Source: Cladocopium goreaui (lineage: Eukaryota > Sar > Dinophyceae > Suessiales > Symbiodiniaceae). From it: a stretch of DNA of 64,000 bases. Where the stretch lies: positions 62,001 to 126,000 of the forward strand of contig CAMXCT020001733.1 of the NCBI GenBank assembly GCA_947184155.2. Reading direction: 5' to 3'. Under the pieces are notes generated by a model. It was not told the origin of the DNA. It searched no databases and worked only from the letters and a program-made list of their open reading frames with translations. Below, piece by piece: positions 5,005-56,754 of this stretch (position 1 is its first letter; each line of letters begins with the position of its first letter). The position numbers and the translations under genes are program-made.

Positions 5005-5348
5005 TGTGAAATATCCACATTTGATCAGATAACCTTAAGCCCCATGACCTTCATCCTTTACACCACCTTGTCAAGCCAGGGTCCAAAACCACACGTGCTT
5101 GTGCATGTCTCTAGACATATGGCTCGGTGAGCCCTGGTGTTGCGGAGGGAGGGAACGTGGTGTCTTGAAGCCATAACCGAAGGTCTGGTCAAGCCGTGGA
5201 TCGGCTTTTGGTGTTCGCTGTGTACAGCTGCTTTTGGTCCGGTGAGACTTTGGAGCTTGGGTGCATAAAACAGTGAGGACGCTGCAGGTTGGTTGAAGCT
5301 GACGGGGTCAGCCAGTGTTTCAGTTGAAGGAGCCGCTAGCCATTCACA
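5005..5348 (+). repeat. 5' LTR of the copia element, 344 bp
   Basis: It is bounded by TGTGAA and TTCACA, a 6-bp inverted repeat. It is identical, as read by eye, to 13361-13704. GCATAAAACA at about 5262-5271 is a possible TATA-like promoter element; the U3/R/U5 borders cannot be set from sequence alone. Confidence 0.95.
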
Positions 5349-5349
5349 T

Positions 5350-5361
5350 TGGTAGCGGAGC
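5350..5361 (+). promoter_or_regulatory. Primer-binding site candidate
   Basis: TGGTAGCGGAGC starts two bases inside the 5' LTR. It would pair with a tRNA whose 3' end reads GCTCCGCTACCA. Copia elements commonly use initiator-methionine tRNA, whose 3' end in many eukaryotes is CTCTGCTACCA, so this is a close but unproven match. Confidence 0.55.
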
Positions 5362-5460
5362 TCCCTGCCTCCGACAAAGCAGGGAGCATCCAGGGCTACC
5401 AAGATCTGGTGTTGGAAGACGGTGCATTGAGACTGTGATCATCAAGACCGTCCCATAGCC

Positions 5461-8400
5461 ATGTCTGAAAGTTCTGGAGGTGAAGCCCAGGGGGGCATCT
5501 CGAACCAGCTGGCAACGTTGGTTCCCAGTTTTGACCCTAGCAAAGATGAGTTACAAATGTACCAGCAGAAGGTGCAGCTTGTTTTGTCAGTTTGGCCGTC
5601 AAACCGAATCTCTGAACTGGTGACAAGACTAATCCTCAATACCACAGGATCTGCCTTTGCAAAGCTCCAAATCCACCATGCGGAGCTCTGCAACAATGAG
5701 GCCAAATCCGTCCAGAAGCTCATTGAGTATCTAGGTGGGCAGTGGGGAAAGACTGGATTAGAGAAACGTTACTATGACGCTGAACGAGCCCTTTTCCATT
5801 GCAATCAGCAGTCCGATGAAAGCCACGATTCGTATCTAGCCAGAGCTGATGTTTTGTGGTCGAAATTGAAGTCTCAGAAATTGCAACTGGAAGACTTGCA
5901 AGCTTACATCACCTTAAGAGGTGCACAGCTGTCGGGAGAAGACAAAAAACGGATCATCCTTGACTCAGATTCGTCTCTGGAAGGATCACTCACAGTAGGC
6001 CGTGTCCAAGAAGCAGTTCGCATGCTTGGTACCGCTTTCTTTCATGAAATGACAGGTCAGGGAAAGAAAACCAGCAAGTCCAAAGTGTATGATGCCTCCA
6101 CCTTCATTGCTGATGACATGGAAGGAAATACTGAAACCGAGGACCATATCCATACGTCACAGCATGATGAATGGACCGAAGATGACATGCTCGAGGCATT
6201 ACTTGCTGAGGGAGACGATGATGCCGTGTTCATAGCCGATTTTGAAACGGCTGCCAGTGAAGTCACCCAAAGCGATGATGACTTAGCAGCAGCATACTCG
6301 ACGTACGTTGAGGCCAGAAGGAAATTGAGTGAGAAGTTCAGGTCACGAGGTTTCTGGCCAATTGGCAAAGGAAAGAGCCGACATGGAAAAGGAAAAGCCA
6401 AAGGGAAGTCCGGTTGGAGTGGCAGAAAATCACTTCAGCAAAGGATCTTAGAATCAAATTGCCGACTGTGCGGGAAAAAGGGTCATTGGCGCAATGAGTG
6501 TCCTAACAAGCCTCAAGGGACAGCTTCCGCAACTGCCTCTGCCGCCATGACGGTGTCGTTTGGCGACACCCCTGCATCGAGTGATCAAGCCATGCCAGCC
6601 GAGTTCCTGCTTTTGCCTGAGATCCCTTCCACCAGTGCCAAGGACATTTTGTCCACAGAGCCACCGTGTGTACAGTCAGTTTTTTTCATGACAGGTTCAG
6701 AAAACACACCCAAGCCACATGTTCCTGAGAATAACATGAGGGAAATCCGGGAGAAGATTAGAAACCATATTAAGGGTAATAAGGGGACTAATCTAGGAGT
6801 GAAAGCCCTCGTGCACAGGATTGAACAGAAGCTGCGACACCAACAACCACGATCGCAGTTGGCCAGTTCCAATGAGTCAGCCCGCCAGCGCATTTTGCGT
6901 TTTTGCCGCGGACATGAACCAAGCCGAGATCAACCAAATGTGACAACCTGCTCAAAAGCAGCAGGCTTACCAGTGTTTCCAACACCAGTAGAGAGCCTCA
7001 ATGCGCCAGAGATCCCTGACAGTGCCGAAGCCCTTTTTGCCACACATGAGACTTGGGGAATTGTTGACACAGGAGCTACCAAGACGGTAATGGGAAGTAA
7101 CTATATCCAAAGTTTTCTCAACCACTTGAACCCCGAAATTCGTCAACATGTCAAGCGTTGTTCATGTGAAGTGTTGTTTCGATTTGGCAATCAGGGCACT
7201 CTCAAAGCAACCCATGCTATTGTAGTTCCTGTATGCGGAATGTGGTTGAAAATAGCAATTGTCAGTGGAGCCACGCCGTTTTTGGTGTCCAATACCCTAC
7301 TCCGGGCCATAGGTGCAATGATCGACACAGACAATCACCAACTCATCATACCAAAGTTTCAAGCACAAGTTCCACTTGAATTGACCAACAAAGGATTGTA
7401 TCTCATCAACATGAATCAATTGTTTGCCCTTGCACCCGTGCCTGGAAGCACAGAGACCGCTGCCGAGACCTATGCACAGGAAACTCTTGACAGAGACCAA
7501 AAAGGCGGGAGTGAGAATCAAACCAGATGTCAGAGCCAGCCACCGTTCGAAGAGCCCACAGGTTCAAAGGTGACAGGTCAGACAGATCAGCCGAGTCACG
7601 TGAAACCACCGTCAGTGTCACTGTCGTACAAGTTGCAACCTGTTACACATACGAGTCTCCCAGCAGAATCCGAATTACCAAAGTTTTTCACTCAAAGCAC
7701 CCGTAGTTCCATTTCCGAGAAAGTTGAATTCGATCATCATGAGCAGCTGGAGCCATCGCCTGTCCAAAGTCCAAGCAAGCTATGCCCAGGCATCCGAAGT
7801 GGAGCCACTCGGGCAACTGAGCCTGACCGAACTCAAAGCCACGCCCAGGAGCTTTGGAAAGGCCCACATGGGCAAAACGTTCCAGGAGATTTGGGACAGC
7901 GATCCACAATGGATCAAATGGTTCCTGAGCCATTATGCAGCCAGCACAAAGACCAAACACCGAAAGATGATCCTGTTCATCCAGCTCATGATCGAGGAGT
8001 CAGAGAAAGAGACTCCACAGCCCTCAGCCAAGGCATTGCCCAAAGCCTTAGCAGCTCGTCCAAAGAGCCATGCAGCCCCAGCAATGCAGCTGCCTGTGCC
8101 GACGGAGTCCGAGGTGGAGTCTTTCGAAATGATGAGCGAAGCACCATGGATCGAAGCATCAGAGACTCGAGAGGACATACATGCCCTTCAGACTCGCTTG
8201 CTCAGCCTGGAAGATGCGATGCAGCGCATGATCGCGCTGATGTCGCGCGGACCCATGACGAGTCATGCACCGATCCCAGAAGATCATCTGGAAACTGCAA
8301 CCACAGCATGGGACGATCCCTGGAACAACTAAGCGATGATGATGATGTGCGTTGCCACTGGGCATTGAAAGCTGGGGAGATAGATACCTTCTGTGAATCG

Positions 8401-11400
8401 AATCCCAACAAAGAGAGGCAGCATTTTTGGGGTTTAGTTCGAAAAATGGAGAAAGAACTCAGTCAGACCGCTGCCATCATCAAGCCAGAGCATGCCGCCC
8501 CCATCGATCTCCTGGAAGTGTTTTGTAGTGATCACAGCAAGCTCACATCCCAGGTATTGCAATTGGGGGGCCTAGCCAAACGGTTTGGTTTGAACCAAGG
8601 TGACCTGATGAAATCTGAGGGTCGTCGCGAGTTGTTTGCACTTGTGATCCGGCATCGTCCCCGTCACATATGGGTCAGTCCGGTCTGTGGTCCATGGAGT
8701 TCATGGTCAAACTTCAATAGTCAAAGGTCGTTGGAAGCATGGGATCATGTCAATGATGAAAGGTGGATGATGCTTACACAAGTCGCGCTGTGCCTCGTCC
8801 TTTGCCGATATCAACACAGATGCCAGAGACATGCACACTGGGAACAGCCCAAAAGATCCCACATGATGAAACTGCCGTATGTCCAAGAAATCCAGCGCTA
8901 TATGGTTGTAGCCAAACCAGACTTGTGCCAAGCAGGGGAATTAAGGGATCCTATGACGAGTCAATTCATTCAGAAGGGATTGGAAATTCACACGTCCTCC
9001 CAAAAATTGTTTGAAGCATTGGACCCCCTGAAATGTCCCAAAGATCATGACCACCAGACAATAGAGGGATCAACACAGGTGCAGGGTCAAAAGATGTTGA
9101 GATCCAAGTTCACCGAAATATATCCAAGGAAGTTTGCGAGGTTGGTTGCCAAAGAAATGTTGAGACGCCGATTTCCCCTAGAAAGACCTGTTGGGTCACT
9201 GGCTGATCCGATGCTGTGTGTGTTGGACAGCTTGCCGGCAGAAGTGTTGGCAGCCACCGTCCAGGAGCGGCCTTCCAAGCGTCCCCGCAAAGCTTCCGCA
9301 AAGGGAGTTAAACATGATGCTGAAACTGGCGCACTCGAGCAACCGCAGGAAATGAAGAGAGTGAAACTCTCAACATCATCACCTGAAGATGTAAATGAAC
9401 ATGCAGAACAACAGCCACAGTCTAGGTCCGAAATCCAGGAAATCACCAATCGCATTGAAGCAATCCTTCCAAGAGTGGGTAAGAAACAGATGGACAGCCC
9501 CGGCATTCTCCAGGACCTCCAAAAGGAATTCCCTGAGGTAATCATCAAAAAGGTAATGGCTTGCAAGGGGACCGATCGCCGTTGGGGACCTCCACAAGGT
9601 TTCAATCCCGCAGAAGCACCTTTGAGAAGATCCATAATGAAACTGAGAGAGAATTTGAGCATCATTGTGGATACATCATGGGAGAGATATGCAGAGTTAT
9701 CCAATCGTCAAATCATCCGAAAATCACCTGCCTGCCGAGTGAATATAACGATGTTTTCAGCGCCCAGACCTGCAGAAAGCTCCGACCATGACCTTGCCAG
9801 GAAACCTGCCTCATCCGAAAGCCATGAAGATCCCGAAAAGCTGGAGATCCAATCTGAGAAGCCCCATAACATTGAGAACACTCAAGGGGATCACCATGGA
9901 CCAGAAGATGATAAAGTTTCCGAACCTCAAAGTGAGCAGATAAACCCAAAGGAACTCCAAGAATCAACATCTTCCCAAGAAATCATAAGAGATGGAGAAA
10001 CATGCGAATCCAATCCTTCTTCACAAGGAAACACCAATGGAAAAGAAACCCAAATCAGTTCTGAGCATGGGATCAGATTCCTGGCACTTCCCAAAGAGGA
10101 GCAAGCAATGCTGCGCAGGGCACACCAAAACTTGTGCCATCCGAGTGCAGAGCGGCTCAGCGCAGTACTGAGAACCCAGGGTTGTCGTCCAGAGTTAACC
10201 CAAGCTGTTTTCGACATGAAGTGTCCCACATGCATGTCATGCCAACAACCAACCAGTGCAAGACCAAGCTCATTTAAAGATGCATTGGACTTCAATGACA
10301 AGGTTTTCATTGATGGAATTACATGGACGTCCAAACAAGGTAGAATGTTCCACTTCTACCACCTTATTGATCAAGCCACTAACTTTCATGTTGCAATTCC
10401 AGCGCCAAGCCGAGCCGCCGACCAAGCAGTGTTGCGAGCCTCAGAAGCCTGGTTCCAATGGGCTGGTCCTCCAAACACCATGATTATGGATTCAGCCACC
10501 GAGTTTACCAGCATGGAGTTTGAAACATTTTTGCAACGTCATGATGTGAGGGGGGTAGTCACAGCTCCACATGCCCATTGGCAAAACGGCCGATGTGAAC
10601 GACATGGGAAAATCTTGCAAAGCATGCTAGAAAAGCTAGATACCGACAGTCCCATCACCACATATGCAGAGCTCCAACAAGCACTTATACAATGCACCCA
10701 TGCAAAAAATTGTTTGAGCATTCGCCGAGGGTACTCGCCAGAAGCGTTAGTCTTTGGGAAAAGTTCCAAAGTGCCTGGGTCCATTGCCAGCTCAGAGGAA
10801 ATGCCTGCACATGCCAGTGCAAATCGCGAGGATGCCTATGGAATCCAATTCAGGCAAAGCCTGGCCCTGAGGGAAAAGGCTCGGATAGCCTTCCATCAGG
10901 CAGACAATGACATGGCTTTACGCCGAGCATGCCTTCGTCGGTCACGACCCGATCGCACTGGATATGCCACAGGAGAGTGGATCATGATGTGGCAGCCCCA
11001 AACCAATAAACCTGGTTATTGGTTCGGTCCCCTAAAGGTAATTCAACAAGAACCTAATCTATCAGTTTGGGCCACCATGGGGGGTAAGCTACATCGAAGA
11101 GCTCCAGAGCACATCCGACCTGTCAGCTCAGCCGAAGCGAGACAACTGCCCGAAGAAGGTGAGGAGCACAGACAAACCAATGTCACTGCCAAAGTCCTAG
11201 AACCATTACCAACCGAAGACCTGTCCACAAGCCATCCAGTAAACCCAGAAGATAATATTTCCCCAAATAATCCTCCAAGTGAAGATAACTACAGTCAATC
11301 TCAAGAACAACCCGACAATGAACCAGAAGAAAACAGTACTCACAGTGAAAACAATGACCATGTGAATACACCAATTCCCGAAAATGATGAGGATGATGAT

Positions 11401-13341
11401 TCATTGGTGACTTCTCACCTCTTGTGCTGTGAAGATGAAATCATGACCGTCTCTCCGGAGGAGACACCATGTGCCTGGCGCTTTGACGTAGAAGTTCCAA
11501 CATACATGTCAAAGGAACAAATGGAAACAATGACCTCAGATTCCATCCTTTTGGCTTCAACCCACAAGAAACAGAGGACAGAAGTGAAACTATCAATGCT
11601 ATCCCAGGAAGAACAGCAAGCCTTCAAACAAGCCAAGCAGACAGAAGTGAACAACTGGATCTCCACAGGGACAGTGTCAAAAATACTGCGCGATAAACTT
11701 GCACCGGAACAAATCCTGAGATGCAGATGGTTATTAGTCTGGAAAGACCGGGAAGAAAAACCAACCAATGGGAAACTTGAAGACAAACCAGAATCCAAAC
11801 TGCACACACATAAGCCCAAAGCAAGATTAGTTGTTCTCGGATATCTAGATCCCAACATCACCGAAGTTCCCAGAGACAGCCCAACGTTAGGTCGAATTTC
11901 CAAGATGTTGGTGTTGCAGCTGATTTCATCAATGGGATGGAGTCTGGGATCATTCGATATCAAAGCAGCATTTTTGCAAGGACGGCCTCAACAGGACAGA
12001 ATCATGGGATTGGAACCAGTTCCAGAGCTTGCCAAGGCACTGGATCTCAAAGCCAATGAAGTGTGCAAATTGGACAAGTCAGCGTATGGTCTCATCAATG
12101 CCCCGTTTTTGTGGTTCAAGACACTTTGTGATGAACTGATGCAGCTTGGAATGGAGCCGAGCCCATTTGATCCATGCGTGTACATCTTGCGCCACCCAAC
12201 GACGGGCAAACTGTCCGGCATTCTAGGAGTGCATGTGGACGATGGAATCCATGGAGGAGATGAATTTTTTATGAAACAAATTTCCAAGCTGGAGACCAAG
12301 TACCCATTTGGATCAAAGAAGTCAAAATCATTTACTTTCACTGGAATTGACATGCAACAACAACCAGATAACAGCATTCACTTATCTCAAACGAAGTACG
12401 TCAACAGCATTCCTCCAATTTCCATTAAACCTGACCGCAGAGCCCAAGAAGAACAACCGGTCACCGAAGTGGAACGCCATCAATTGAGAGGGATCATCGG
12501 ATCCTTGCAGTATGCTGCTGTTCACACCCGTCCAGATCTTTCAAGTGCCTTGAGCCATCTTCAATCAGAAATCAACAAGGCCACGGTTGGAACATTGGTG
12601 ACAGCCAACAAAGTTCTCCATACTGCCAAGAAGCATAGCGATGTAACCATTAAGATTAAACCAATCAGACCCCAAGATCTTAGGTTTATTGCTTTCTCAG
12701 ATGCTTCGTTTGCGTCAAAAAGTAAACCCGAATCTCATGCCGGTATGATCATCCTTGCAACTCACAAAGAGATTTCCCAAAACCAATCTTGTGATGTAAG
12801 TCCGATATCATGGGGTACCAAAAAGATTCAACGGATTGTAACGAGCACATTATCAGCAGAAACATCCGCATTATCAACTACCCTTGATCAACTTACCTGG
12901 GTAAGAATCTATTGGGCATGGATTTTAGATCCCAAAGTTGAATGGCAAAAGCCCGAAAAAGCCACAAATCTCCCTCCTGCAATTTCCATTCCCACGTACA
13001 AAGCTGATCACCATGATCTTGCCATTACAGATTGCAAAAGCCTTTACGATTTGACCACTAGAACCGCCATACCCAATTGTCAAGAATACAGAACTCAATT
13101 ATTAGCCCGATCAATCAAGGACATTCTGACAGAGGGGATACATCTCCATTGGGTTCATTCAGGGGCCCAACTTGCAGACTCCCTCACCAAAATTATGGAG
13201 GCCAATTTTTTAAGGGAAACACTCAAACAAGGAAAATATTGCCTGCATGACTCAGCAGAGGTACTCAAAAATCGGGCTTCCGCAAGAAACCGATTGAAAT
13301 GGCTGAAGACGTCCACTGATCAAATGTGTTCCTCAGTTTAA
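5461..13341 (+). CDS. Copia Gag-Pol polyprotein, 2626 aa, intact, with an embedded methyltransferase-like module
   Basis: Translation from ATG at 5461, 112 nt after the LTR, runs without a stop to TAA, 19 nt before the 3' LTR. Domains in order: Gag region (about 1-300); Lys/Gly-rich linker and CCHC zinc knuckle at 334-347 (CRLCGKKGHWRNEC); aspartic protease DTGATKT at 536; low-complexity region (about 680-990) lying over another open frame; methyltransferase-like module (about 1013-1230); integrase with HHCC zinc motif near 1555-1597 and catalytic D1618, D1677, E1713 (35 residues between the last two); reverse transcriptase with SFDIKAAFLQG and VDD at 2259-2261; RNase H starting near FSDASFAS at about 2414 and ending near 2590. 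The catalytic residues of every enzyme of the copia cycle are present. It would be cleaved by its own protease and direct reverse transcription and integration. Confidence 0.95.
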   Translation: MSESSGGEAQGGISNQLATLVPSFDPSKDELQMYQQKVQLVLSVWPSNRISELVTRLILNTTGSAFAKLQIHHAELCNNEAKSVQKLIEYLGGQWGKTGLEKRYYDAERALFHCNQQSDESHDSYLARADVLWSKLKSQKLQLEDLQAYITLRGAQLSGEDKKRIILDSDSSLEGSLTVGRVQEAVRMLGTAFFHEMTGQGKKTSKSKVYDASTFIADDMEGNTETEDHIHTSQHDEWTEDDMLEALLAEGDDDAVFIADFETAASEVTQSDDDLAAAYSTYVEARRKLSEKFRSRGFWPIGKGKSRHGKGKAKGKSGWSGRKSLQQRILESNCRLCGKKGHWRNECPNKPQGTASATASAAMTVSFGDTPASSDQAMPAEFLLLPEIPSTSAKDILSTEPPCVQSVFFMTGSENTPKPHVPENNMREIREKIRNHIKGNKGTNLGVKALVHRIEQKLRHQQPRSQLASSNESARQRILRFCRGHEPSRDQPNVTTCSKAAGLPVFPTPVESLNAPEIPDSAEALFATHETWGIVDTGATKTVMGSNYIQSFLNHLNPEIRQHVKRCSCEVLFRFGNQGTLKATHAIVVPVCGMWLKIAIVSGATPFLVSNTLLRAIGAMIDTDNHQLIIPKFQAQVPLELTNKGLYLINMNQLFALAPVPGSTETAAETYAQETLDRDQKGGSENQTRCQSQPPFEEPTGSKVTGQTDQPSHVKPPSVSLSYKLQPVTHTSLPAESELPKFFTQSTRSSISEKVEFDHHEQLEPSPVQSPSKLCPGIRSGATRATEPDRTQSHAQELWKGPHGQNVPGDLGQRSTMDQMVPEPLCSQHKDQTPKDDPVHPAHDRGVRERDSTALSQGIAQSLSSSSKEPCSPSNAAACADGVRGGVFRNDERSTMDRSIRDSRGHTCPSDSLAQPGRCDAAHDRADVARTHDESCTDPRRSSGNCNHSMGRSLEQLSDDDDVRCHWALKAGEIDTFCESNPNKERQHFWGLVRKMEKELSQTAAIIKPEHAAPIDLLEVFCSDHSKLTSQVLQLGGLAKRFGLNQGDLMKSEGRRELFALVIRHRPRHIWVSPVCGPWSSWSNFNSQRSLEAWDHVNDERWMMLTQVALCLVLCRYQHRCQRHAHWEQPKRSHMMKLPYVQEIQRYMVVAKPDLCQAGELRDPMTSQFIQKGLEIHTSSQKLFEALDPLKCPKDHDHQTIEGSTQVQGQKMLRSKFTEIYPRKFARLVAKEMLRRRFPLERPVGSLADPMLCVLDSLPAEVLAATVQERPSKRPRKASAKGVKHDAETGALEQPQEMKRVKLSTSSPEDVNEHAEQQPQSRSEIQEITNRIEAILPRVGKKQMDSPGILQDLQKEFPEVIIKKVMACKGTDRRWGPPQGFNPAEAPLRRSIMKLRENLSIIVDTSWERYAELSNRQIIRKSPACRVNITMFSAPRPAESSDHDLARKPASSESHEDPEKLEIQSEKPHNIENTQGDHHGPEDDKVSEPQSEQINPKELQESTSSQEIIRDGETCESNPSSQGNTNGKETQISSEHGIRFLALPKEEQAMLRRAHQNLCHPSAERLSAVLRTQGCRPELTQAVFDMKCPTCMSCQQPTSARPSSFKDALDFNDKVFIDGITWTSKQGRMFHFYHLIDQATNFHVAIPAPSRAADQAVLRASEAWFQWAGPPNTMIMDSATEFTSMEFETFLQRHDVRGVVTAPHAHWQNGRCERHGKILQSMLEKLDTDSPITTYAELQQALIQCTHAKNCLSIRRGYSPEALVFGKSSKVPGSIASSEEMPAHASANREDAYGIQFRQSLALREKARIAFHQADNDMALRRACLRRSRPDRTGYATGEWIMMWQPQTNKPGYWFGPLKVIQQEPNLSVWATMGGKLHRRAPEHIRPVSSAEARQLPEEGEEHRQTNVTAKVLEPLPTEDLSTSHPVNPEDNISPNNPPSEDNYSQSQEQPDNEPEENSTHSENNDHVNTPIPENDEDDDSLVTSHLLCCEDEIMTVSPEETPCAWRFDVEVPTYMSKEQMETMTSDSILLASTHKKQRTEVKLSMLSQEEQQAFKQAKQTEVNNWISTGTVSKILRDKLAPEQILRCRWLLVWKDREEKPTNGKLEDKPESKLHTHKPKARLVVLGYLDPNITEVPRDSPTLGRISKMLVLQLISSMGWSLGSFDIKAAFLQGRPQQDRIMGLEPVPELAKALDLKANEVCKLDKSAYGLINAPFLWFKTLCDELMQLGMEPSPFDPCVYILRHPTTGKLSGILGVHVDDGIHGGDEFFMKQISKLETKYPFGSKKSKSFTFTGIDMQQQPDNSIHLSQTKYVNSIPPISIKPDRRAQEEQPVTEVERHQLRGIIGSLQYAAVHTRPDLSSALSHLQSEINKATVGTLVTANKVLHTAKKHSDVTIKIKPIRPQDLRFIAFSDASFASKSKPESHAGMIILATHKEISQNQSCDVSPISWGTKKIQRIVTSTLSAETSALSTTLDQLTWVRIYWAWILDPKVEWQKPEKATNLPPAISIPTYKADHHDLAITDCKSLYDLTTRTAIPNCQEYRTQLLARSIKDILTEGIHLHWVHSGAQLADSLTKIMEANFLRETLKQGKYCLHDSAEVLKNRASARNRLKWLKTSTDQMCSSV
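7724..8332 (+). CDS. Overlapping frame encoding an ExoX C-terminal-like domain inside gag-pol
   Basis: In the frame one base ahead of gag-pol, about 200 codons stay open (first ATG at 7739; upstream start codons are only TTG) and end at TAA 8330-8332. At about 7849-7900 it reads FGKAHMGKTFQEIWD followed by DPQWIKWFLSHY. That is the pattern of the small domain found at the C terminus of exonuclease X-like proteins and, from memory, in related dinoflagellate elements. Over the same bases the polyprotein frame gives repetitive, non-conserved-looking sequence rich in Ser, Arg, Asp and His. Either two compensating indels moved a once in-frame domain, or both frames are used. No internal promoter is visible. 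The domain call is moderate; expression is unknown. Confidence 0.55.
   Translation: MNSIIMSSWSHRLSKVQASYAQASEVEPLGQLSLTELKATPRSFGKAHMGKTFQEIWDSDPQWIKWFLSHYAASTKTKHRKMILFIQLMIEESEKETPQPSAKALPKALAARPKSHAAPAMQLPVPTESEVESFEMMSEAPWIEASETREDIHALQTRLLSLEDAMQRMIALMSRGPMTSHAPIPEDHLETATTAWDDPWNN
8497..9160 (+). other. DNA methyltransferase-like module within the copia polyprotein
   Basis: Residues about 1013-1230 of the polyprotein. LLEVFCSD at 1017-1024 resembles motif I of C5 DNA methyltransferases. SPVCGPWSSWS with Cys1076 resembles motif IV, whose cysteine is the nucleophile. HWEQPKRS resembles the E-containing motif VI. DLCQAGELRDP and the cysteine/histidine patch KCPKDHDH follow. Motifs IX and X and a target-recognition region are not recognisable, so enzyme activity is uncertain. 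The module is not part of standard copia. C5 methyltransferases carried by dinoflagellate retrotransposons have been reported, so this may be a divergent relative. Its EVF, PC, ExP, DxC and HDH order matches the module at 26.5-28.8 kb. Confidence 0.5.
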
Positions 13342-13360
13342 AATTTTTAAGTTTTGCGAG

Positions 13361-13704
13361 TGTGAAATATCCACATTTGATCAGATAACCTTAAGCCCCA
13401 TGACCTTCATCCTTTACACCACCTTGTCAAGCCAGGGTCCAAAACCACACGTGCTTGTGCATGTCTCTAGACATATGGCTCGGTGAGCCCTGGTGTTGCG
13501 GAGGGAGGGAACGTGGTGTCTTGAAGCCATAACCGAAGGTCTGGTCAAGCCGTGGATCGGCTTTTGGTGTTCGCTGTGTACAGCTGCTTTTGGTCCGGTG
13601 AGACTTTGGAGCTTGGGTGCATAAAACAGTGAGGACGCTGCAGGTTGGTTGAAGCTGACGGGGTCAGCCAGTGTTTCAGTTGAAGGAGCCGCTAGCCATT
13701 CACA
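13361..13704 (+). repeat. 3' LTR of the copia element, 344 bp
   Basis: A copy of 5005-5348 with no difference found by eye. The 19 bases between the polyprotein stop and this LTR contain no clear polypurine tract, only GCGAG at the junction, which is unusual for a working element. Confidence 0.95.
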
Positions 13705-13860: not shown

Positions 13861-14288
13861 CTATGGAAAATAATATACCAATTAAAGCTTCCCTAATGAT
13901 ATCTTAAAGTTTTAGAATTATGGAATTAAAATCAGCATTTTTATAGGACAATATAGGAAAATATGCTATGAAAATGATTGAACATGCCCCTATAACTGGA
14001 AAAACATGTGGAGAATCACCATCTTTACCCTTATATAATAGGAAAATATGCTATGAACATGCCCTATAAATCTGGAAATGTTTATGGACAATCAGCATCT
14101 TTAAAATAGGAAAATGTGGCCTATAACTGGAACAAAATGACCCCCGGGTAATTTAAGTGGCATAGCTGTGGACTTTTAAAATAGATGAATCCTCGAACTA
14201 AATGGGCCATGGCTTCCATAGCTATGTTAAATTACCAAAGGGTAACGCAGTGTTCAAACATGGTGATGGATCAAGTCACCTATGAAAT
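13861..14288. other. AT-rich spacer
   Basis: It contains repeated words such as ATAGGAAAATATGCTATGAA (near 13950-13970 and again near 14038-14057) and CCTATAACTGGAA, suggesting degenerate short tandem duplication. No gene is recognised. Confidence 0.6.
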
Positions 14289-15301
14289 TCATATGACTGG
14301 ATGGACATCCATCCATCCATCCATCCAGACAGACAGACAGACAGACATACATACATTCATGCATGCCTGCATACATGCATACATGCATACATGCATACAT
14401 ACATACATACATGCATGCATGCATGCATGCATACATGCATACATGCATACATGCATACATGCATACATGCATACATGCATACATGCATACCTGCATACGT
14501 GCATACGTGCATACGTGCATACGTGCATACGTGCATACGTGCATACGTGCATACGTGCATACGTGCATACATGCATACATGCATACATGCATACATGCAT
14601 ACATGCATGTAACATACATACATACATACATACATACATACATACATACATACATACATACATACATACATACATACATACATACATACATACATACATA
14701 CATACATACATGCATCCATGCATACATGCATACATGCATACATGCATACATGCATACATGCATACATACATGCATACATGCATACATGCATACATGCATA
14801 CATACATGCATACATGCATACATGCATGCATGCATGCATGCATACATGCATACATATACATGCATACATGCATACATGCATACATGCATACATACATGCA
14901 TACATGCATACATGCATACATACATGCATACATGCATACATGCATACATACATACATACATACATACATACATGCATACATGCATACATACATACATGCA
15001 TACATGCATACATACATACATGCATACATACATACATACATGCATACATACATGCATACATACATACATGCATACATACATACATGCATACATACATGCA
15101 TACATACATACATGCATACATACATGCATACATACATACATACATGCATGCATACATACATGCATACATACATGCATGCATGCATACATACATGCATGCA
15201 TGCATGCATGCATGCATGCATACATACATACATACATACATACATACATACATACATACATACATACATACATACATACACACACACATATATATATATA
15301 T
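14289..15301. repeat. Long composite tetranucleotide microsatellite (CATA/CATG/CGTG)
   Basis: About 1 kb of tetranucleotide repeats in blocks: ATCC, then GACA, CATA/CATG mixtures, a CATACGTG block (about 14495-14565), a pure CATA block (about 14612-14708), long mixed CATA/CATG, and final CATA, CA and TA runs. The 12-base super-period contains no stop codon in most frames, so long open frames appear on both strands. They translate to Thr-Tyr-Ile-His or Met-Tyr-Val-Cys repeats and are not genes. Confidence 0.97.
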
Positions 15302-19553: not shown

Positions 19554-19783
19554 TGTGAATCGGAGGTTATCTCCCCGATATATGCTTTAATTTGTTTGAG
19601 AAGGTTGTTGATCTCTCACCAGCGATGACGAACGAATGGCAATTTCGGCATTGCTTCCTTTTCACGCGGAGCTAGCAGTATCTTGAGCCAAAAGGGGCAC
19701 ATCATGCGACCCTTTGGCCATGGACGATTACAGGACATTCATATGGGAATATGTACCATGCCGTAGCCTACATCCCATTCGCA
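19554..19783 (-). repeat. 3' LTR of the giant element, 230 bp
   Basis: Ends TGTGAAT/ATTCGCA. On the minus strand it holds TTTTGGCTCAAG (19682-19693), matching the 3' end of the dinoflagellate spliced leader. It aligns with 38737-38966 with roughly 25 differences. Confidence 0.9.
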
Positions 19784-19791
19784 CCCCCCAC
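19784..19791 (-). promoter_or_regulatory. Polypurine tract candidate
   Basis: On the minus strand GTGGGGGG abuts the TGCGAATGGG start of the 3' LTR, the expected place for the plus-strand primer. A hairpin TGGCCAAC-ttt-GTTGGCCA (19795-19813) sits just beside it. Confidence 0.6.
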
Positions 19792-20316: not shown

Positions 20317-23300
20317 TCATCTGTATCCCCATCCATAGTATCCTTGATGGTTCCAGTCGCCACCACGGTGTGAATAAGATCTTCCACCTTTCCCTTGGTC
20401 TTTTCCACCTTTCTGTGGCGGAGGTACTGGAGCTTGCTTCGGCGGAGGAGCAGCTTCGACGGTTCTCCATGTTGCTGATGATGATGCTTTCGCTTTTGAC
20501 ACTCTGCCCAGTGCTGGTGCTGCCTTCGGGGCTGCTTTCGATTTGCCAGCGGCCGGGTTAGCACGTTCACGATCGGCAGGAACCGGGGTATCAGCAATCG
20601 CAAGTATGTGGGCTTCTGACATGTGGATGCCCCATCTTGGCCGTTGATCATCCCGTTGCTTGATGTGGTTGTAGTCGTTGATTGCATCATACAGCTTCTG
20701 GAGTAGAGGTCGTGGTAATTGTCGGCCATTTTGAAGGATCAGATGCAAAACTGAGATTCTTCGAAGTGGAGGTCGAAGAGCACACACAATGTCAACTGGG
20801 TTCAGTGTGATCGTGTCTTGAAAGTCGACGTTCCTGAAGAAATAAACAGCATTCACTCTGTATGCACCTGCAATGATTCTTCTGACCAGGACATCTTGTC
20901 GGTCAAGGGCTTCGCGGGCGGCTGTGGTCTTTCTCATCTCATCCCTTGTTGAGTCACGTTTCGACAGTTTCTCCATCTCTTCATCGAAGAAGATATTTTG
21001 CAAGTCTTCATAGGTGTAACCGCATTCAAGGGTATATACGAGAAGTCGTTTAAGTACCACTGCCCCATAGTACGCATTGACGAATCCCTCTTCCCCGATG
21101 TCGTCCTTTTGTTGTGGTCGGCCGATTTCTTGGTAGAGCTCTTTCATCTGTTGTGCAGTTGGTTCGATGAGTTCACCATTTTCATCCTCACCTAGGTATG
21201 GTACTCTTGAATCCAAGTCCATCCTGAATTTTCGGTTCTGTTGAAAGTGTTTCCATGCCGTCTCGATGTCTCCACAGAAGTTCCGTTGGAATAGTCTGTA
21301 GATCCTGACGATATGCAACCCAATCTGTAACAGGAGGATTTTGATGAGCTCCGGCTGAGCATCTCCAATTGTACAAGGCTCGATTGGTAGGACCTTTGAT
21401 CCAAACTCAATCCTCTTCATCCACTTGGGGTACTCAATCACTGCATCATGAGCTTCTCCAGCCTCGTACTCCTCAATGTTGATTTCGCCGACCTCTATCT
21501 CTTCATCGTCATTCTCATCGGTTTGTTTTCCTTCCTCATTGAGAAATTTATCGACCTCATCTTGCTCTCTGAAGTCTCTTCTCTCATCGTTGATGTCGCC
21601 CTTCTTCGAGGCTTGATCATCATGTTCTTCTTCTGGTTGAGGTTCTTGTTCTGGACTCTTCATGGTGACGTCATCATCATCTTGCGTCAGCTCGTCGTCA
21701 TCATCTTCACCTGTCAAATCGATCTTCACTTCTTCCCATGCTTTCTTGACATGGTCTTTGAGATCTTCTTCTCGAGGACGTGATTCGGCACTTGGTACAG
21801 TAGCCACGGTGATCTTGATTCGCTTCCTCCATCCATGACTTACCAAAAATCCTTTGCACATCACACAAATCGATAGTGGTGCAGGGGTCTCCATCAGACA
21901 TGCGGGGCATAGTCGATGGTCCTCCTTGCTAGGATGATGAGTGACTGCTAGCAATGATATTGCATCATTCCAATCCGGATGTCCAGGGAACAATCTGTGA
22001 GTATGACTGAAGTGACCGGTCTTGATATCGACAAGCTTTCGAAGTTCGTTCAGATCGGGTGATGATTCATCAGGCACAATGTTCCCAATGAGTTTGTCAA
22101 ATCGTTCAATGGTGGCCACCCTCCTTGCTCCTTGCACAGAAAGTACAAGTTGATCTTTTCCCTTTGTGATCATGAGACGGTAGTAGTCCTTTTCCTTCCA
22201 ATCGTAGTACCAAACTGCATCGAATGATTCGAATGGAATTGTTTCTTGGACCAAAATGTGTCCGTCTGCTGATAATCGAGGGGAGAACTTGGCGATGGAA
22301 TCGTACGTGATGTAGATGTAGACAAGATCAGTTTGTTCGATCTTCCTGAATCTCAGCACCGTCTGACTTCGTACGTCCCACGGTGCGAATGGCACGAAGA
22401 ACGTGTTGATTCGGTCGCCTCCTCCTCCGGGACGTAGTCCTTCTCTGAAGATTTGAGCGATGTTGTCAAAAGTGGTGCAATGAAATCCTCCTCCAAGAGT
22501 ATATCCGACTCCAGGGTTCATCTGATAGGAAGTCTTCTTGTCTTCAATGTGCACACCTCCTTGAACTCTTGAATGAGCCATAGGGGCACGGATTGCCACC
22601 GGCCATAGCCAAATCTCTCGATCTGCTGTTCCGATTTCCAATCTCAGCGTTTGTCGTTCAAGTCTCGAGGTCAATTCGTCATTGAAGTTGTTCATGATGT
22701 GTTCCAACTCACCTTTCGTGACTTTGAGTCCTAGCACTTGAGCTCGGATCCTCTTCGTCTGCTTGTACTCAGTGAAGATCACTCTCTGGAAATTGTTCCA
22801 CCTCTCAACAAGTATCGGGTAATTGACGTGGGTCGTTCCAGCCAATGTATGTTGGTCTCTCCAAATGTTGTCGTACTTCAAGATCGACTCGACATTGACC
22901 CAACCTGCTTCATCGCATGGTAGCCCACGGTGATTTCGATTGTCCTTGACGCAACCCACGGAGTGGCGTAGCGCTGCATTGAATCTTTTCGACAATTCGA
23001 CTATCCATTGCGGATTTTCCCACTTGTTGCCCATCCACTCGTTCTCGCCATATCGATGCACATTACTCCATCCATATCCAAGATATTCTTCTCCATTGAT
23101 GCGAGCAAGTTGAAGTGTACCGATGTTGTGGCCATGTGTGAATGGTTGGATGTACCTGAAATTCCAGTTGTCTCCATACTGTTTTCTTTCTTCAGTAAGC
23201 CATTCCATATATGCATCATGACCTTTGGGGTTCCAGGCGTTCAGCTCCTCAATGGTCGGCAAAACAGGCGGGGATTCCTCAGCCGCACGTTCAATCAGCA

Positions 23301-26451: not shown

Positions 26452-28770
26452 TCAGAAGTCGACTTCGTCGGGTTTTCGTCCATCATTGAAGATCAAGGGG
26501 ACATCCCAGTTGTCGAAATTGTGCATGCCTCCGGCTGTTCCAGCTTGAGTCTCGGTCATCAGCACGGTGGTGAAATCTTTGAGGGAGCTGTGGCAGGCAT
26601 GACGTCTTTCTTTCTCAGTGTATCTGGCTCCTTCATCGGCAATCGAGACATTGTAACCATGTCCAATCAGGATTCCCTGAGGGATGTCAAAGACTTTGAG
26701 GATCGAGAACTGGATCTCGGATAATTCTGCTATCTTCGACAAATTCCCATCTCCTCGAGCGCTGGTCTTGTGTCTTTCGAGTGTCGTGCCGAGGGCCAAC
26801 AAACATAAGAAATGATTCTGGGCTGCACTCCTTCCTTTCGGTTGGTTGGTTTCAAAAGCAATCACATCTTTCATCACATCCTGCAAGATGATCTGATTCG
26901 ATGGGTTCTGCTCGTTGTGATATCTCAATGCATGTCCTAGGTGCCTCATCTGGATCTCAACCATGTGCTTCATTGCCGTCAAATAGCTATCATTGTCAGA
27001 TGGAGACTTCGGATTCACCTTGGTCAACTCGTCCATGACTTTGAAGTATTCGGCGGTCCTTGTCACAGCTAGCCATGATGTTGCACTTGGATCTGTGTTG
27101 AATGATGGTGTTCCTCGATAAATTTGTTTCATGCTTCGGATCTTCGCCTCAGTTTCTGCAGCAGTGGCTTGATCATCAAAAGGTTCGGGAAAGTGTCCTT
27201 TGGACAATACGATCCAGAGCTCATCAAGTCTGTCGTAGATCTCTTTGTCCATGAAGCGTCCCATAGTTGCATCTTCATATGGGCATCTGCTGGCAAAGAC
27301 CTTCACGAATCTCGACCCTTTTGACAAAAACTCCCATCCGGAACACTTCTTCTCGATGTCCTGCGCTCTCTGCAACAACTTGTAGGCTACTTCCAGGGCT
27401 TGTGCAGTTGCTTCACTGGTGTGCCTGGAGTTCGCGAAGTAAGCTGAGTAGACAACTGCAGGCGGCATGCCAAACCTAATCCATTGATTGGCTGTGTCCT
27501 CATCTGAGATCAGGCGAAAATTCGAGCCTCGGGTGTCTCGGAATGGTGATGGAGTCTTGGCTGCAATGGTTCCTTCAGACAATCCCTTCAGCACTCGTAA
27601 TGCAACGGTGATTCGGCTTCCTGAGAATTGCCCTACTGAGTTCAGATCATGGGTTTCGGCCATCCCGCTTTGTACAGAAGAAAGTTGTACGGACCGTAGG
27701 TCTCGTAACAACAGCTCGAGCAGCGGAAATAGTTGTACGAACCGTAGGTCTCGTAACAACCAATCGGAGTCGAATTCAGAAAGCGGTCGACGCGAAAATG
27801 AAAAGTGCCACGAAGAAAGAACCGAAGTTGATGTCAATCTCGAAAAGCACCAGTGCAGTAGCGATCGCTCGAACGAATGGTCAATGGCGTCGAGCTCTCG
27901 AGTAGCACAAACGGATGTTGCCACCGACTTGATTGGGTGACTGCGGATATTCTCGGAATCACGAGACATTTCAGCTTTCAGTTGTTCATCACAAGCAAGC
28001 GGCTTCCAACGTTTCATCACTTTGACGTTCACAAATGGACTATTCCTGGTTACATGATCATTGATTCCATTCATGATGATCTTGGCTATCCACTTGGTGT
28101 AAACTTGAGTAATGCGAGTTTCCCTACCGGCACACTCAGCATGGTCATGACGGCGATCACATCTTCTATGAAGCTTTGGAAAAGACACCCCCCATGTAAC
28201 AATCTTCCATGGTTTCTTGATTGGTTTGGGAGTCTCTTGGAATTGTGATTTCAAGCCATACATGCATCCATCAAATTTGTGCTCATGAGATACGGTTCCT
28301 TCCACAAGGTCAGTCATTCTACGGTCCTTCCAGTAGTCACAACCTCTAGGCAACTCAAGCAAGGCTGGTGATCCCATGTTGATAAGTTCACTTAGCACTG
28401 ATGTAAACACTTCCCACATCGCCCAGAAGATCTGCTTCTTTGCTTCGATGAGTTGTGTCGTTGCTTCGCTTACCCATCGGTTGATTCGGTTCCATGGTGA
28501 ACCTCCTGTACATGGACCTGCAAAGAACACTGAATCAAGTTTGGTCCGAAGGCATCGCCTTGCTTTACTGATTCCGTACGGAGAGAGCATGTCGTCATCT
28601 TCGTGATTGGTACGACATGAAACTTCATTTCGTCCTTCATTTTGTTCTGCAAGAACGTAAACCAGTTTCTCTCTTCCGAACATAACAAGACGAAGCATGG
28701 GACTGCTTGAGGAACTTCGATCAAATTGATTGCAAGGGAAAACTTCGCATACTTTGATGTCATCAAGTCA
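26452..28770 (-). CDS. Giant-element downstream protein with methyltransferase-like module, 748 codons from ATG 28698
   Basis: Frame open from about 28770 (after a TGA), first ATG at 28698, stop TGA at 26452-26454. Before the ATG it reads DDIKVCEVFPCNQFDR, like motif I of the copia-borne module, so the true start lies upstream in another frame. Numbered from Met28698: PCTGGSPWNRIN with P62-C63 (motif IV-like), LLELPRGCDYW at 113-122 (motif VI-like), FDGCMYGL at 142-149, and RRCDRRHDHAEC at 178-189. Residues about 200-345 look unconserved and include an in-frame 16-codon duplication (LRDLRxVQL twice, 27684-27760). From M346 a new, conserved-looking unknown region runs to the end. It is in the same frame as the 2037-codon frame, separated by one TGA. 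Confidence 0.7.
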
Positions 28771-30810: not shown

Positions 30811-33800
30811 ACTAGTGCATTCGGAGCTAGATTCCCTCGGCTCAGTGTCTCACTGTCTTGGCCAGGACGTGAGTTGCCAGTCTCGGAGAGAGCAGGCATA
30901 TCTGGATCGAAGGAGTGTGCGCACCAAGGACACTCAACTTTGCGTTTCCCATCGGAAGGAGCTCGATACGGGCTGCTTTTCGTTTCCTCTGGAAGGCTTG
31001 GAGTTGATACCTTTTTCAATTTCGTGTCCTTACCAATGATGTCAAGATACTTTTCCACCGATAACTTTAACAATCCTTCCATGTTATAAGTTATGGTCTT
31101 GACTTTCTTACCATTATGCAACTGGGTCTCACCTTGGGATAAAACACATCCTAAGTAAAGTCCCAGGTCGGTTTCGGGTTCAATGCGCAGAACTGTGCGC
31201 AGCATTTCCCAACCTTTGGCCAGATTTTCGGAGGGCCCAGCAAGCTTAAGATCATCCACATAGATTACCAACAGCAATTTGAGCTCATCATGAAAATACA
31301 TAGAAGGCCATTCCTCTCCAATGGGTTTAAAACCAATTTCTTGAACTTTCTTGTCACAATGTTGTTCCCACATCGTGCCTGAATCGGGATGTCCATACAG
31401 GGCTTTGTCGAGTCTTACGACAGGGCGACGAAACTTCCAGTACTGTATCTCAGGAGGCCATGCATCAGTGGGTAACTCCACCCAACACAAAGGTCCCTTC
31501 AACTTGGCCTGGATGTATGCCTGAATCGCATCTGCCAGCTTGACGGAGTGTCCAGGAAGACATCCGTAGAAATCGGCCCATCGTGAGGCTTCGAAGGAAG
31601 CAGGGGAATTTCCCAAGTCTTGGAAGAATGCTGCCTCCCAATGCTGATTCTTCACTTGATTGCCTAGTAGAACGCCTCTTCCCTTGAACTTTCGACCAGG
31701 ATTGTCCTCGGACAACTGGTAATTCTTTTCCACACATATGCCATGGACCCTGGCCATATGTACTTCCTTTTTATTCTTCTTGGCCTCTGCAACGACATCG
31801 TCATATTCACGAACCATTGTAAAGTCGAATACCTCTTGATCACGAAGGCCTTTCCACTCCTTGAGCATTGCCTCTTTGGCTTTTGGGTTGGACTCAATTT
31901 CAGCTCTGCCCACAGGTCGTGAGACCATTGCGTTGAAGAGCTTGCTTCCAAGGCCCCCTGATGGTATCTTGGTTCGGTGACTTTGATTGGATGCAGAAGT
32001 ACACGGCATAGTTGGGAATGGAATGTATTCATCATCATCAGTGGCTATGTTCTTCACGTTCTTGACATTAACACATTTGCCATTCTTGATCATTGTCGAC
32101 TCACCTGGCGTAGCCACGGAGAATCTTGAAATCTCACCTGACAATGTGCTCCAAACTTCACCACTCCACGATGCTTTTGGGCCACGTCCTTTCTCGACCT
32201 CCGACCACTCATCCCATTCAGTGAGATATTCCTCGTCGTCCGGGACGTCAGTAGAAGCATCGGAACATGGACTAGCATCAGCATTCCTCTTCACTTTTCG
32301 ACAATCAATATATCGTTTTCCATGGACGTCGTCATCATCGACTATGTCGTACAGATCAAGATATGTACTTGTACATGTGATAGGTAAGGTAACTTTGTTC
32401 TTCACAATTTCACCAACACCTGCATCAGATTTCTTTGACTTTGAATGAGAGTCATCCTTCTTACTTTCATCACCTCCTTCATCGTCCTTGGACTTCGGCT
32501 CGTCCTTGTCTTTCTTTGAATCTTTCTTCTCCTTCTTCAATGCTTTCTTCTTTTCTTCGACCAATCTTTTGGCTTTGTCATCGGCCTCTTTCTTCTCCAA
32601 CTTCTTCTTCTCGGCTTTGAGGATGGTGTTCCGGTCAGACTGAGAGAGTTTGCGCCATTCTTCAGGAGAATAGGTCCCTTTGGGGCGCAATGACGTTTTG
32701 AACATTCGTCTACCGTCATCTCCAATCTTGTATGGGTAACCCTTGACGTTCAACTTGACCTTCTCACCATCGTCATTGAGGTATATCTTCCCATCTCCAG
32801 CTTTGCCCGACTTCCAATGGTCTGGTTGGGCGTCGATAAGTTCCTGGAGAGTCATCTCTTCCGGATCTTTATCTTTGTCGAAGATATCCTCGGAGTCATC
32901 AAGAGGCTTCTTTGAAACTTTTCCACCACTTGGTCCAGGTCCACCGTCATCTCCGTCATCAAGCTCGTCATCGTCTTCGTCATGGTCATGTTCTTCATCA
33001 TCTCCATGAGGCACTTTGGAAGGATCGCCATCGAGGATTTCTCTTTCTTTCATTCCTTCCAATGTGGTGTTCACCCTCTCATACTCTTGCTTGCATGGAA
33101 ATGTCAATGGAGTGACCATCTCGACCTTCTCGGTTAAATGAGGTTTGAGAAGACGGTGTTCAGGTTTGCTAGCATCGTCACCAAGATTCTGATGTACGAA
33201 TTCACTCAGAGGCCATACTTTGTACTGTCTTGACCAATGCATCCCTGGACCAATGTGATACCCTGCAAACACTCCTGGAATAGAGTCAGGTCCGAACTTA
33301 TGAAGTTGTCCCGCTTCTCTGGTCTTCGGAGGCTTGTAGTTCACACGAGCACCATAGGGAATGAGTTTGCCAGCAAATTCAGATCCGTGGAGTTTGCACC
33401 AAGCGCTCAATTCATCATCGTTGGGTTCTACGTTGAGTAGATGACATACACAAAGGATTGCTGTTCTCCAGAAACAAGGTGGTAATCCAGCTTCCAACAG
33501 ACATGTAGAAGTAGCTGTGAGAATAAATTGGTTCGTCCTTTCGGCAATTGAATTGGTTTGAGGTCTCCCAGGCAACGAATGATCAATTGGTATCTTCATC
33601 TCGTTCATAGCTTCAATGAACTGAGGAGCATGATCAGAGTAGGCCTGTCTGACCTTCTTGGCGCCGATGAACTGTTTCACTGCTCTGACTACATCGTCTT
33701 TGGTCATTCGATCAGATGGATAGGCACCAATGATTCCTGTAAAACAGTCTCTGACAACCAACACTTCCTTCTCGAGGACCAATACGTCATCATGGACTTT

Positions 33801-38678: not shown

Positions 38679-38736
38679 CTGTAAGGCCCGCGGCTACCCG
38701 CTCGTAGGCTCCGTAGGAGTCCTACGGCTGATAACC
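38679..38736 (-). promoter_or_regulatory. Leader with primer-binding candidate and perfect hairpin
   Basis: On the minus strand the LTR is followed at once by GGTTATCAGCCGTAGG. This would pair with a tRNA anticodon arm reading CGGCTGATAACC, like the half-tRNA primer used by Drosophila copia (GGTTATGGGC there). CCGTAGGA-G-TCCTACGG (38711-38727) is a perfect 8-bp stem with a one-base loop, a possible dimerisation or packaging signal. The start codon ends the leader. Confidence 0.4.
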
Positions 38737-38966
38737 TGTGAATCGGAGGTTACCTCCCCGATATATGCTCTTGGTTGTTTGAGAAGGTTATTGATCTCTC
38801 ACCAGCGATGACGAACGAGTGGCAGTTTCGGCATTGCTTCCTTTTCACGCGGAGCTAGCAGTATCTTGAGCCAAAGGACCACATACATGCAGCCCTTGGC
38901 CGTGGATGATTAAGGGCTATTTTACATGGGAGTGTGTTGCATGCCGTAGCCTACATCCCATTCGCA
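38737..38966 (-). repeat. 5' LTR of the giant element, 230 bp
   Basis: Same ends as 19554-19783. On the minus strand it carries TTTGGCTCAAG (38865-38875), one base shorter than the spliced-leader-like match in the other LTR. Confidence 0.9.
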
Positions 38967-39188
38967 TGTATGTATGTATGTATGTATGTATGTATGCAAG
39001 TATGTATGTATGTTTGTATCTATCTGTCTATCTATCTATCTATCTGTATGTATCTGTATGTATGTATGTATCTGTATGTATGTATCTGTATGTATGTATC
39101 TGTATGTATGTATGTATGTATGTAAGTATGTATGTATGTATGTATGTTTGTATCTATCTGTCTATCTATCTATCTATCTATCTATGTA

Positions 39189-39221
<33 letters not shown>

Positions 39222-39450
39222 ATCTATCTGTATCTATCTGTATGTATCTGTATGTATCTGTATGTATCTGTATGTATCTGTATGTATCTGTATGTATCTG
39301 TATGTATCTGTATATATCTGTATGTATCTGTATGTATCTGTATGTATCTGTATGTATCTGTATGTATCTGTATGTATCTGTATATATCTGTATGTATCTG
39401 TATGTATCTGTATGTATGTATATATGTACACATTACATGTGTATACATAC
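38967..39450. repeat. TATG/TATC/TCTG microsatellite
   Basis: It begins immediately after the LTR end as TGTATGTATG, then TATC, TCTG (39189-39222) and a long TATGTATCTG decanucleotide block (about 39236-39420). Open frames through it (Met-Tyr-Val-Cys, Tyr-Ile-Gln-Ile-His-Thr repeats) are not genes. Confidence 0.95.
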
Positions 39451-40395
39451 TGTAAATGTCCTATATATATATTGACATGTGTATATATATATACATATTT
39501 ATTTATCTACAATATGCATTCCAAATCTCTTCTGAAACACGCTGGCTCCGGCTGAGGTACGCTGAAGGAGAAGCCGCGAAATAGCCCTGCATTTCCAATG
39601 GAAACCGGCTTCATGGAATAAGCCGTCGATGTGGAAGTCAAGAGCAACGAATAGAAAGCCTGATTCTGGCGATCTCTACACGTCAGTGTATTCAATAGAA
39701 ACTTCACGAAAATGACGTGCATGATTTGCCCAGCAGCTAATTGCATGTTCTGAACCCACATTGAAGTTCTCGCTGTCTTCCCCCTCTGTTTCACCAGCAT
39801 TTCCAGGTAGATTGCCTCAGAGATGCACAGATTGAAATGTGGAGTGGATTCACGAAACTATAAGTTCCCAAACTTCCACAAGACCTGTAACGACATGTCA
39901 CAAACCTTAAAACTGCTTGTGCAATGAACTTGTGCAAGGCACTGCAAAGCCCGAACAAAGGCACCCGCCAAGGACCAAGAGAAGGCCTGGTCGATCGGAT
40001 CGTCAGCGTCTAGGTCCGACTGGTCCAAGAAATGTCCAAGAAATTTCCGACAACCCAGGTCCAACCGTCCAACCGTCCAACCGTCCAACCGTCCAACCGT
40101 CCAACCCAGGTAGTTGCATCATGTTGCATCATGTTGCATCATGTTGCATCACTTGCGCTTCAATCCAGCCCTCTGTCGGACATCTGCTTCTATGCCGGTT
40201 GCCTCCGGTTACCGTATCTGTTAAGAACTGTTAAGACAGCTATTCCAATATGCCTAGATTGTTGAATATGCAGCTGCCTAGAGCAGGTTGCTGCTCTGAT
40301 GCATTCACCATTGAAGCTTGCTTGCCTTCCTTGCAAAGGCCACAAAGGTCACAAAGGTCACAAGGGCACAAGCCAGCACCAGCACCATGAGCAAG
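39451..40395. other. Spacer with short minisatellites
   Basis: Mostly unique DNA without a recognisable gene. A CCAACCGTC tandem lies at about 40060-40108 and a GTTGCATCAT tandem at about 40113-40150. AGGTCACAAAGGTCACAA repeats occur near 40335-40360. Confidence 0.6.
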
Positions 40396-56269: not shown

Positions 56270-56678
56270 GTCGTCATCGTCACCGTTACCATCACCATCA
56301 CCGTCACGTCACCGTCATCATCGTCATCATCGTCATCAACACCATCACCGGCATCACCGTCATCATCGTCATCCTCGTCATCGTCATCATCATCATCATC
56401 ATCTTCATCTTCATCATCATCACCCTCATTGAACACTCATCATCGTCATCATCGTCATCATCCCCATCATCATCACTGTCATCATCGTCATCATCGCCAC
56501 CATCGCCATCATCATCATCATCACCACCATGATCATCATCATCGTCGTCATCATCACCATCACCATCGTCATCATCATCATCATCACCATCACCATCATC
56601 ATCACCATCATCATCATCATCACCATCATCATGGTCATCATCATCATCACCACCATCATCATCATCATCGTTGCCATC

Positions 56679-56709
<31 letters not shown>

Positions 56710-56752
56710 CCATCATCATTGTCATCATCGTCATCATCCTCATCATCAGCAA
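56270..56752. repeat. CAT/CGT/CAC trinucleotide microsatellite
   Basis: About 480 bases of CATCAT with CGTCAT and CACCAT variants. It is open in several frames on both strands (Ser, His, Ile, Asp, Met or Val homopolymer-like products), hence false ORFs. Confidence 0.97.
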
Positions 56753-56754
56753 TC

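Follow-up and report, generated by a model that had tools for sequence, protein, structure and literature searches.

A domain related to the RNA 2'-phosphotransferase Tpt1/KptA was found in a giant copia-type LTR retrotransposon of the dinoflagellate Cladocopium goreaui, within the window analysed here (the whole stretch of 64,000 nucleotides from contig CAMXCT020001733.1). We propose, at a probability of roughly 40%, that in such elements this relative is an integral domain at the C-terminus of the polyprotein, maintained by selection, and that it would act catalytically, using NAD on a phosphate of the element's own nucleic acid and most likely removing 2'-phosphates. An earlier sequence-only reading of this DNA had placed a Tpt1/KptA-like domain with a complete catalytic tetrad on a giant LTR retrotransposon, and the evidence below supports that placement.

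Organization of the retrotransposon

A single element runs on the minus strand from position 38966 to 19554 (about 19.4 kb), with long frames between its two direct repeats; all features of the element given below lie on this strand. Sequence comparison of the repeats defined a 5' LTR (38737..38966) and a 3' LTR (19554..19783), each of 230 bp with TG...CA ends, which both read TGCGAATG...ATTCACA and are 87% identical in a 238-column BLAST alignment. A putative primer binding site, assigned by position, adjoins the 5' LTR (38716..38736), and a purine tract recognized by eye lies before the 3' LTR (19784..19791). A simple repeat borders the 5' LTR, and no target site duplication was seen.

The gag-pol frame P0002 (30801..38693) had Pfam matches over cut-off to zf-CCCH (two fingers), Asp_protease_2 (28.3 bits) and the copia-type reverse transcriptase (RT) family RVT_2 (36.3 bits, E 6e-9; 31131..31427). 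The CCCH-type zinc fingers, at P0002 residues about 1090-1128, are within the gag part of this copia-type element. No integrase family was matched by Pfam at E up to 1, and integrase-like motifs before the RT were recognized by eye only. The RNase H-like part of pol was assigned by eye and position to P0003 (29269..30849), which had no Pfam match. In the ORF list, P0006 (28470..29273) holds the start of the P0004 region in another frame, and P0004 itself (26452..28767) carries a GPCTGGSPW domain that blastp and hhalign showed to be common to a second lineage, described below as lineage C. The carrier of the Tpt1-like domain is P0001 (20317..26451), a stop-to-stop frame of 2044 aa located 3' of gag-pol. 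Beyond the Tpt1-like domain, P0001 also contains a zinc-ribbon-like cysteine motif, CxxC...CxxC, seen by eye (21856..21909), a stretch to which Pfam had no match. Judged by eye, P0115 fuses the equivalents of P0006, P0004 and P0001 into one frame of 2996 aa. Because its coding sequence is divided among several frames, the window copy is broken; other copies in the genome have a single uninterrupted frame.

Relationship of the domain to Tpt1/KptA

Pfam, alignment, hhalign and fold matching placed the domain at P0001 residues about 1150-1415 (22207..23004). The five peptides on which the sequence-only reading had relied are present in P0001 in the order it gave, inside 22360-23010. It had also proposed a Pfam search, which did recover PTS_2-RNA (PF01885), and no other family, when P0001 was searched at E up to 1; the match covered residues 1151-1342 and profile positions 4-123 of 177 with an E of 1.1e-5; the score of 25.9 bits was, however, 0.1 bit under the curated cut-off of 26, so that the Pfam match alone would be borderline. 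In profile comparison, hhalign matched the family profile (121 rows) to 120 cellular Tpt1s with a probability of 92.4% (E 5e-7), and 20 column shuffles of the same comparison reached 1.3% at most. In a mixed alignment, the remainder of the domain, to about residue 1415, aligned with the C-terminal part of Tpt1, and identity to cellular members was about 25%. Searches of PDB sequences, by phmmer with P0001 and with a profile built on the full-length alignment A1, returned no Tpt1 chain at E up to 1. When P0124, a distant relative, was searched alone, it had no Pfam match at E up to 1.

The predicted structure showed a two-lobe fold, with a winged-helix RNA lobe and an NAD lobe, that matched solved Tpt1s; the sequence-only reading had proposed such a comparison as a check. 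A good model required cellular Tpt1s in its input alignment, the model from the family's own 22-row alignment being poor (mean pLDDT 42.8). Solved KptA complexes with DNA and ADP-ribose were among the fold matches. A chance match of motifs was ruled out by the shuffles and by the conserved copies described below. Together, profile comparison, modelled fold and a nearly invariant tetrad support the domain as a genuine Tpt1/KptA relative. It shares with Tpt1/KptA/TRPT1 (PF01885) the order of motifs, the R-H-R-R tetrad, the HxT motif (in the window's lineage) and the two-lobe fold, and differs from them in being embedded in a retrotransposon polyprotein and in an insertion of about 60 residues ahead of the IRA motif.

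Intact copies and purifying selection

The 1.17-Gb Cladocopium goreaui assembly was searched with the window's domain, which gave 889 candidates; the 124 that were scored establish at least 124 close copies of 96-100% identity. All 321 residues were covered in 123 of the 124, and 121 were free of stops. Seven of the scored copies sit in frames of at least 6,000 aa, six of them 6,124-6,145 aa long. In the uninterrupted relatives, gag-pol and the Tpt1-like domain are in one frame of about 6,125 aa; in two of the seven (L067 and L068), the domain and the RT, which lie about 8 kb apart, were seen to share a reading frame. The EukProt protein P0124 (46% identical) has, by eye, a P0002-like gag stretch near its start. 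Misassembly or a lone insertion was ruled out by the frame shared with RT in two further copies and by lineages C and E.

The pooled pN/pS of the domain was 0.10 (210 pairs among 21 copies), against 2.6 and 1.5 for the same DNA read in the other two frames; the 21 copies were the window copy and 20 of the 124, taken from a list of those nearest by protein, a choice that biases the ratio downward. The domain is therefore under purifying selection. In three copies compared at both places, pN/pS was 0.14-0.17 in the domain versus 0-0.11 in the RT, which is the more constrained of the two in those copies. The many intact copies suggest that the element needs the domain. The sequence-only reading had described the domain as cargo, too weak a word for what is part of a polyprotein in uninterrupted copies and is selected.

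Tpt1-like domains in other retroelement lineages

We use lineage A for the window's element and C, E, B and F for further groups named in this analysis. A genome search with PF01885 gave 1496 candidates; each of the 150 that were scored, among them members of the other lineages, exceeded the curated cut-off, and 5 contained a stop. Three loci (L001, L002 and L003) were strong matches of cellular type: L001 branched with human and yeast Tpt1 (support 77), and L002 and L003 branched with bacterial Tpt1s. The latter two, on contigs C5523 and C1 (C1 being 7.4 Mb), are bacterial-type Tpt1 genes, either on bacterial contigs or transferred.

Lineage C (L027, L029 and L031) has an RT 42-45% identical to that of the window's element (E 3e-66 to 1e-63), with the Tpt1-like domain in the RT's frame and frames of 3,924-4,028 aa. 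Its member P0128 carries fingers, RT and Tpt1-like domain in that order in one protein of 3732 aa, with RVT_2 under the cut-off. Lineages A and C both carry the GPCxGGSPW domain (blastp of P0004 against L034, E 3e-15; hhalign of the P0115 equivalent of P0004 against P0128, 97.1%). When the whole extensions of A and C were compared, only this domain was significant, and the stretch with the Tpt1-like domain gave E 0.39. The PCxGGSPW domain (window 26452-28767; L034:2-2713; P0128) directly follows RNase H in both lineages, and recalls C5-methyltransferase motifs by eye, but Pfam gave no match of any kind in P0004 or L034.

Lineage E (L035) gave 817 candidates; of the 150 that were scored, 3 contained a stop, and frames roughly 1,885-1,901 aa long recur. 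One such frame has a copia RT in frame with the Tpt1-like domain, and this RT is 34% identical to that of a second copia element in the window (E 2e-15). The domain is thus not unique to the window's element, being in frame with RT in two further copia lineages. The sequence-only reading held that its claim would fall if HMM and structural matches were lacking or if the domain never appeared again beside LTR element genes; both kinds of match were obtained, and the domain stands in frame with a copia RT both in these two lineages and in two further copies of the window's element.

Lineage B (L004-L020 and L021-L026) resembles DIRS/Ngaro-like tyrosine-recombinase elements in its split direct repeats, present in all three copies looked at, and has a recombinase-like C-terminus. 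One copy matched Phage_integrase at 19.9 bits (cut-off 27.1), HxxR...Y was seen by eye in three, and Pfam found no RT family in this lineage. In the loci L021-L026, the split direct repeats and a C-terminus like that of tyrosine recombinases occur together with a Tpt1-like domain whose third tetrad residue is Ala. In lineage F (L037 and L061), a Ty3-like RT frame, possibly of the same element, lies just upstream of the Tpt1-like domain, in another frame. At L037:6951-9347, L037:9224-10000 and L038:1-3204, the Ty3-like RT frame is followed by a Tpt1-like frame with an intact tetrad, and this by a frame with matches to PLDc_2 and to a RanBP-type zinc finger.

Profiles of all five lineages matched cellular Tpt1s (A 94.7%, C 99.4%, E 97.8%, F 98.9% and B 99.8%), but some matches between lineages were weak (1.8% for A versus E, 7.0% for A versus F and 65.3% for A versus B), and descent of all the Tpt1 domains from a single origin was not established. 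An unrooted tree of 36 sequences and 170 columns, with ultrafast bootstrap, joined A with C (support 97) and set A, C and E apart from the rest (82), with B and F placed weakly (50 and 69). We suggest tentatively, at somewhat under even odds, that Tpt1-like domains may be a standing module of dinoflagellate retroelements, present in at least three copia lineages and a tyrosine-recombinase lineage and amounting to hundreds, perhaps over a thousand, copies in one genome. One group would have the full NAD/RNA active site and others would be remodelling it, and the coupling of RT to an NAD-dependent enzyme of RNA healing or end-capping would then be a strategy that mobile elements have adopted repeatedly.

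Conservation of active-site residues

Conservation was scored in a 121-row alignment, consisting of the query and the best 120 of 124 proteins (query residues 1100-1420, E up to 1e-3). The tetrad begins with R1162 and H1163 in the motif LRH (22963..22968), both present in 121 of 121 rows. R1288, in the motif IRAPMAHS (22588..22590), is Arg in 119 rows, Trp in one and a gap in one, and R1347 (22411..22413) is Arg in 117, with one Cys, one His and two gaps. The HxT motif of the NAD lobe, H1324 and T1326 (22474..22482), has its His in 118 and its Thr in 119 of the 121 rows. The sequence-only reading was right that the tetrad R, H, R, R is kept, although the residue numbers it assigned were seven too low. 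In a 77-row alignment with cellular Tpt1s, R1162, H1293, H1324 and R1347 were among six invariant columns.

The R-H-R-R tetrad is complete in lineages A, E and F. Lineage C has R-G-R-R where readable (L027, L029, L064, L066, P0128 and P0129), with CRG in L065. In lineage B the third residue is Ala at 15 of 17 loci, and the other two were not matched by the pattern. Lineages A, C, E and F all retain HxT, which reads HG(T/S) in B. According to available passages of a study of RslTpt1, the tetrad contacts the 3'- and 2'-phosphates of the junction, and step 2 was 710- and 210-fold slower upon loss of two tetrad arginines and threefold slower upon loss of the His (PMC6333775). For human TRPT1, the text at hand reports that every single tetrad change abolishes ADP-ribosylation of 5' ends (PMC6582358). 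Taking the state of the tetrad with these published mutant effects, we predict that the A, E and F domains are catalytically active and that those of C and B are possibly altered or inactive.

Proposed role of the domain

In the reading that we prefer, the domain would be produced along with RT and protease and would accompany them, and a phosphate of RNA or DNA would attack in an NAD-dependent reaction. Catalysis and the NAD-dependent clearing or modification of phosphates on the element's nucleic acid are inferred. The favoured version is that 2'-phosphates would be removed from element RNA that had been cut and then re-ligated, because a 2'-phosphate in the template should hinder RT, as such phosphates would here if left in place. 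Template healing is favoured also because KptA in viruses is interpreted as RNA repair in the portion available of a viral NAD survey (PMC9503650). Against the main reading we count the Pfam score below cut-off, the misses among PDB sequences, the model's need of cellular Tpt1s, the lack of the tetrad His in lineage C and of one Arg in lineage B, the stronger constraint on RT in the three copies compared, and the downward bias of pN/pS from the choice of copies.

The main rival to template healing, possible although we think it unlikely, is that the domain ADP-ribosylates 5'-phosphate ends of element RNA or cDNA and that this cap shields the ends from exonucleases or from host factors that sense them. 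The same tetrad serves human TRPT1 and a Streptomyces KptA in modifying RNA with 5'-phosphorylated ends, as far as the available text describes (PMC6582358), and the DNA and ADP-ribose complexes among the fold matches also agree with capping; however, a capped cDNA end would presumably need processing before integration, and Pfam recognized no reversing hydrolase domain in the element. The replacements in lineages C and B raise another explanation, also unlikely and slightly more so, in which the element retains the domain for RNA binding or as a structural component of its particle, and some or all lineages have lost catalysis or have no need of it. The abolition of human TRPT1 5'-end activity by single tetrad changes, in the part of that report cited above (PMC6582358), agrees with this, but the tetrad is complete in A, E and F, the NAD-lobe motif persists as HxT or HG(T/S) throughout, and step 2 of RslTpt1 was slowed no more than threefold by the His change (PMC6333775, as excerpted).

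Copia elements elsewhere use half-tRNA primers, and bases after the 5' LTR could, by eye, pair with an anticodon arm, so that the domain might process the end of a tRNA-fragment primer for extension by RT. We consider this improbable: Tpt1 is known for acting on internal 2'-phosphates, and the single perfect anticodon-arm pattern that was derived and tried had 0 matches in the genome, leaving the half-tRNA primer idea of the sequence-only reading unsupported. Retroelements do pick up foreign sequence, and the domain could be a captured fragment of a host gene that hitchhikes without use to the element; purifying selection, presence in divergent lineages and open frames in 121 of 124 (A) and 147 of 150 (E) scored copies make this the most improbable of the explanations.

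Relation to known systems

With Ty1/copia the element shares LTRs, a protease and an RVT_2-type RT, and it differs in the CCCH fingers of its gag, in its length of about 19.4 kb and in a C-terminal extension of some 3,000 aa that includes the Tpt1-like domain. DNMT-bearing dinoflagellate retrotransposons likewise represent capture of a nucleic-acid-modifying enzyme by retroelements, the enzyme being a different one, and that work reports the DNMT domain to be absent from the Symbiodinium Copia superfamily (PMC5890265). In the portion at hand, the viral survey reports KptA in phages, a few DNA viruses and RNA virus polyproteins, with embedded domains in a Beihai picorna-like virus and a Botrylloides leachii nidovirus as in our element; unlike it, these are positive-strand RNA viruses with no reverse transcription (PMC9503650). 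That portion does not mention the words retrotransposon, retroelement or transposon, and the available part of a paper on retrotransposon accessory domains does not mention Tpt1, KptA or phosphotransferase. Viral contigs scanned with six peptide patterns gave no matches. The sequence-only reading knew of no LTR retrotransposon with such a domain, and in keeping with this we found no description of a Tpt1 domain with a retrotransposon among the open-licence papers that our searches listed.

Tpt1/KptA is widespread in organisms that lack a known substrate, an open question raised in the available passages of both enzyme studies (PMC6333775, PMC6582358). Here an enzyme kept under selection and fused to the RT of a mobile element seems to work outside tRNA splicing, a possibility open to experiment. 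The set of activities known from retrotransposon polyproteins would thereby gain an NAD-dependent enzyme, and damage to RNA or the chemistry of its ends would emerge as something that limits these elements.

Other repeats in the window

The second copia-type element of the window lies on the plus strand at 5005-13660 and has one ORF of 2636 aa (P0005), in which no Tpt1 motifs were seen by eye and whose RT resembles that of lineage E. Its repeats (5005-5304 and 13361-13660) are 100% identical over the 300 bases compared. Long tandem arrays of short units (8 to 9 bases) are located at window positions 14201-15300, 38931-39500, 56274-56950 and 63212-63880, one such array adjoining the 5' LTR of the giant element.
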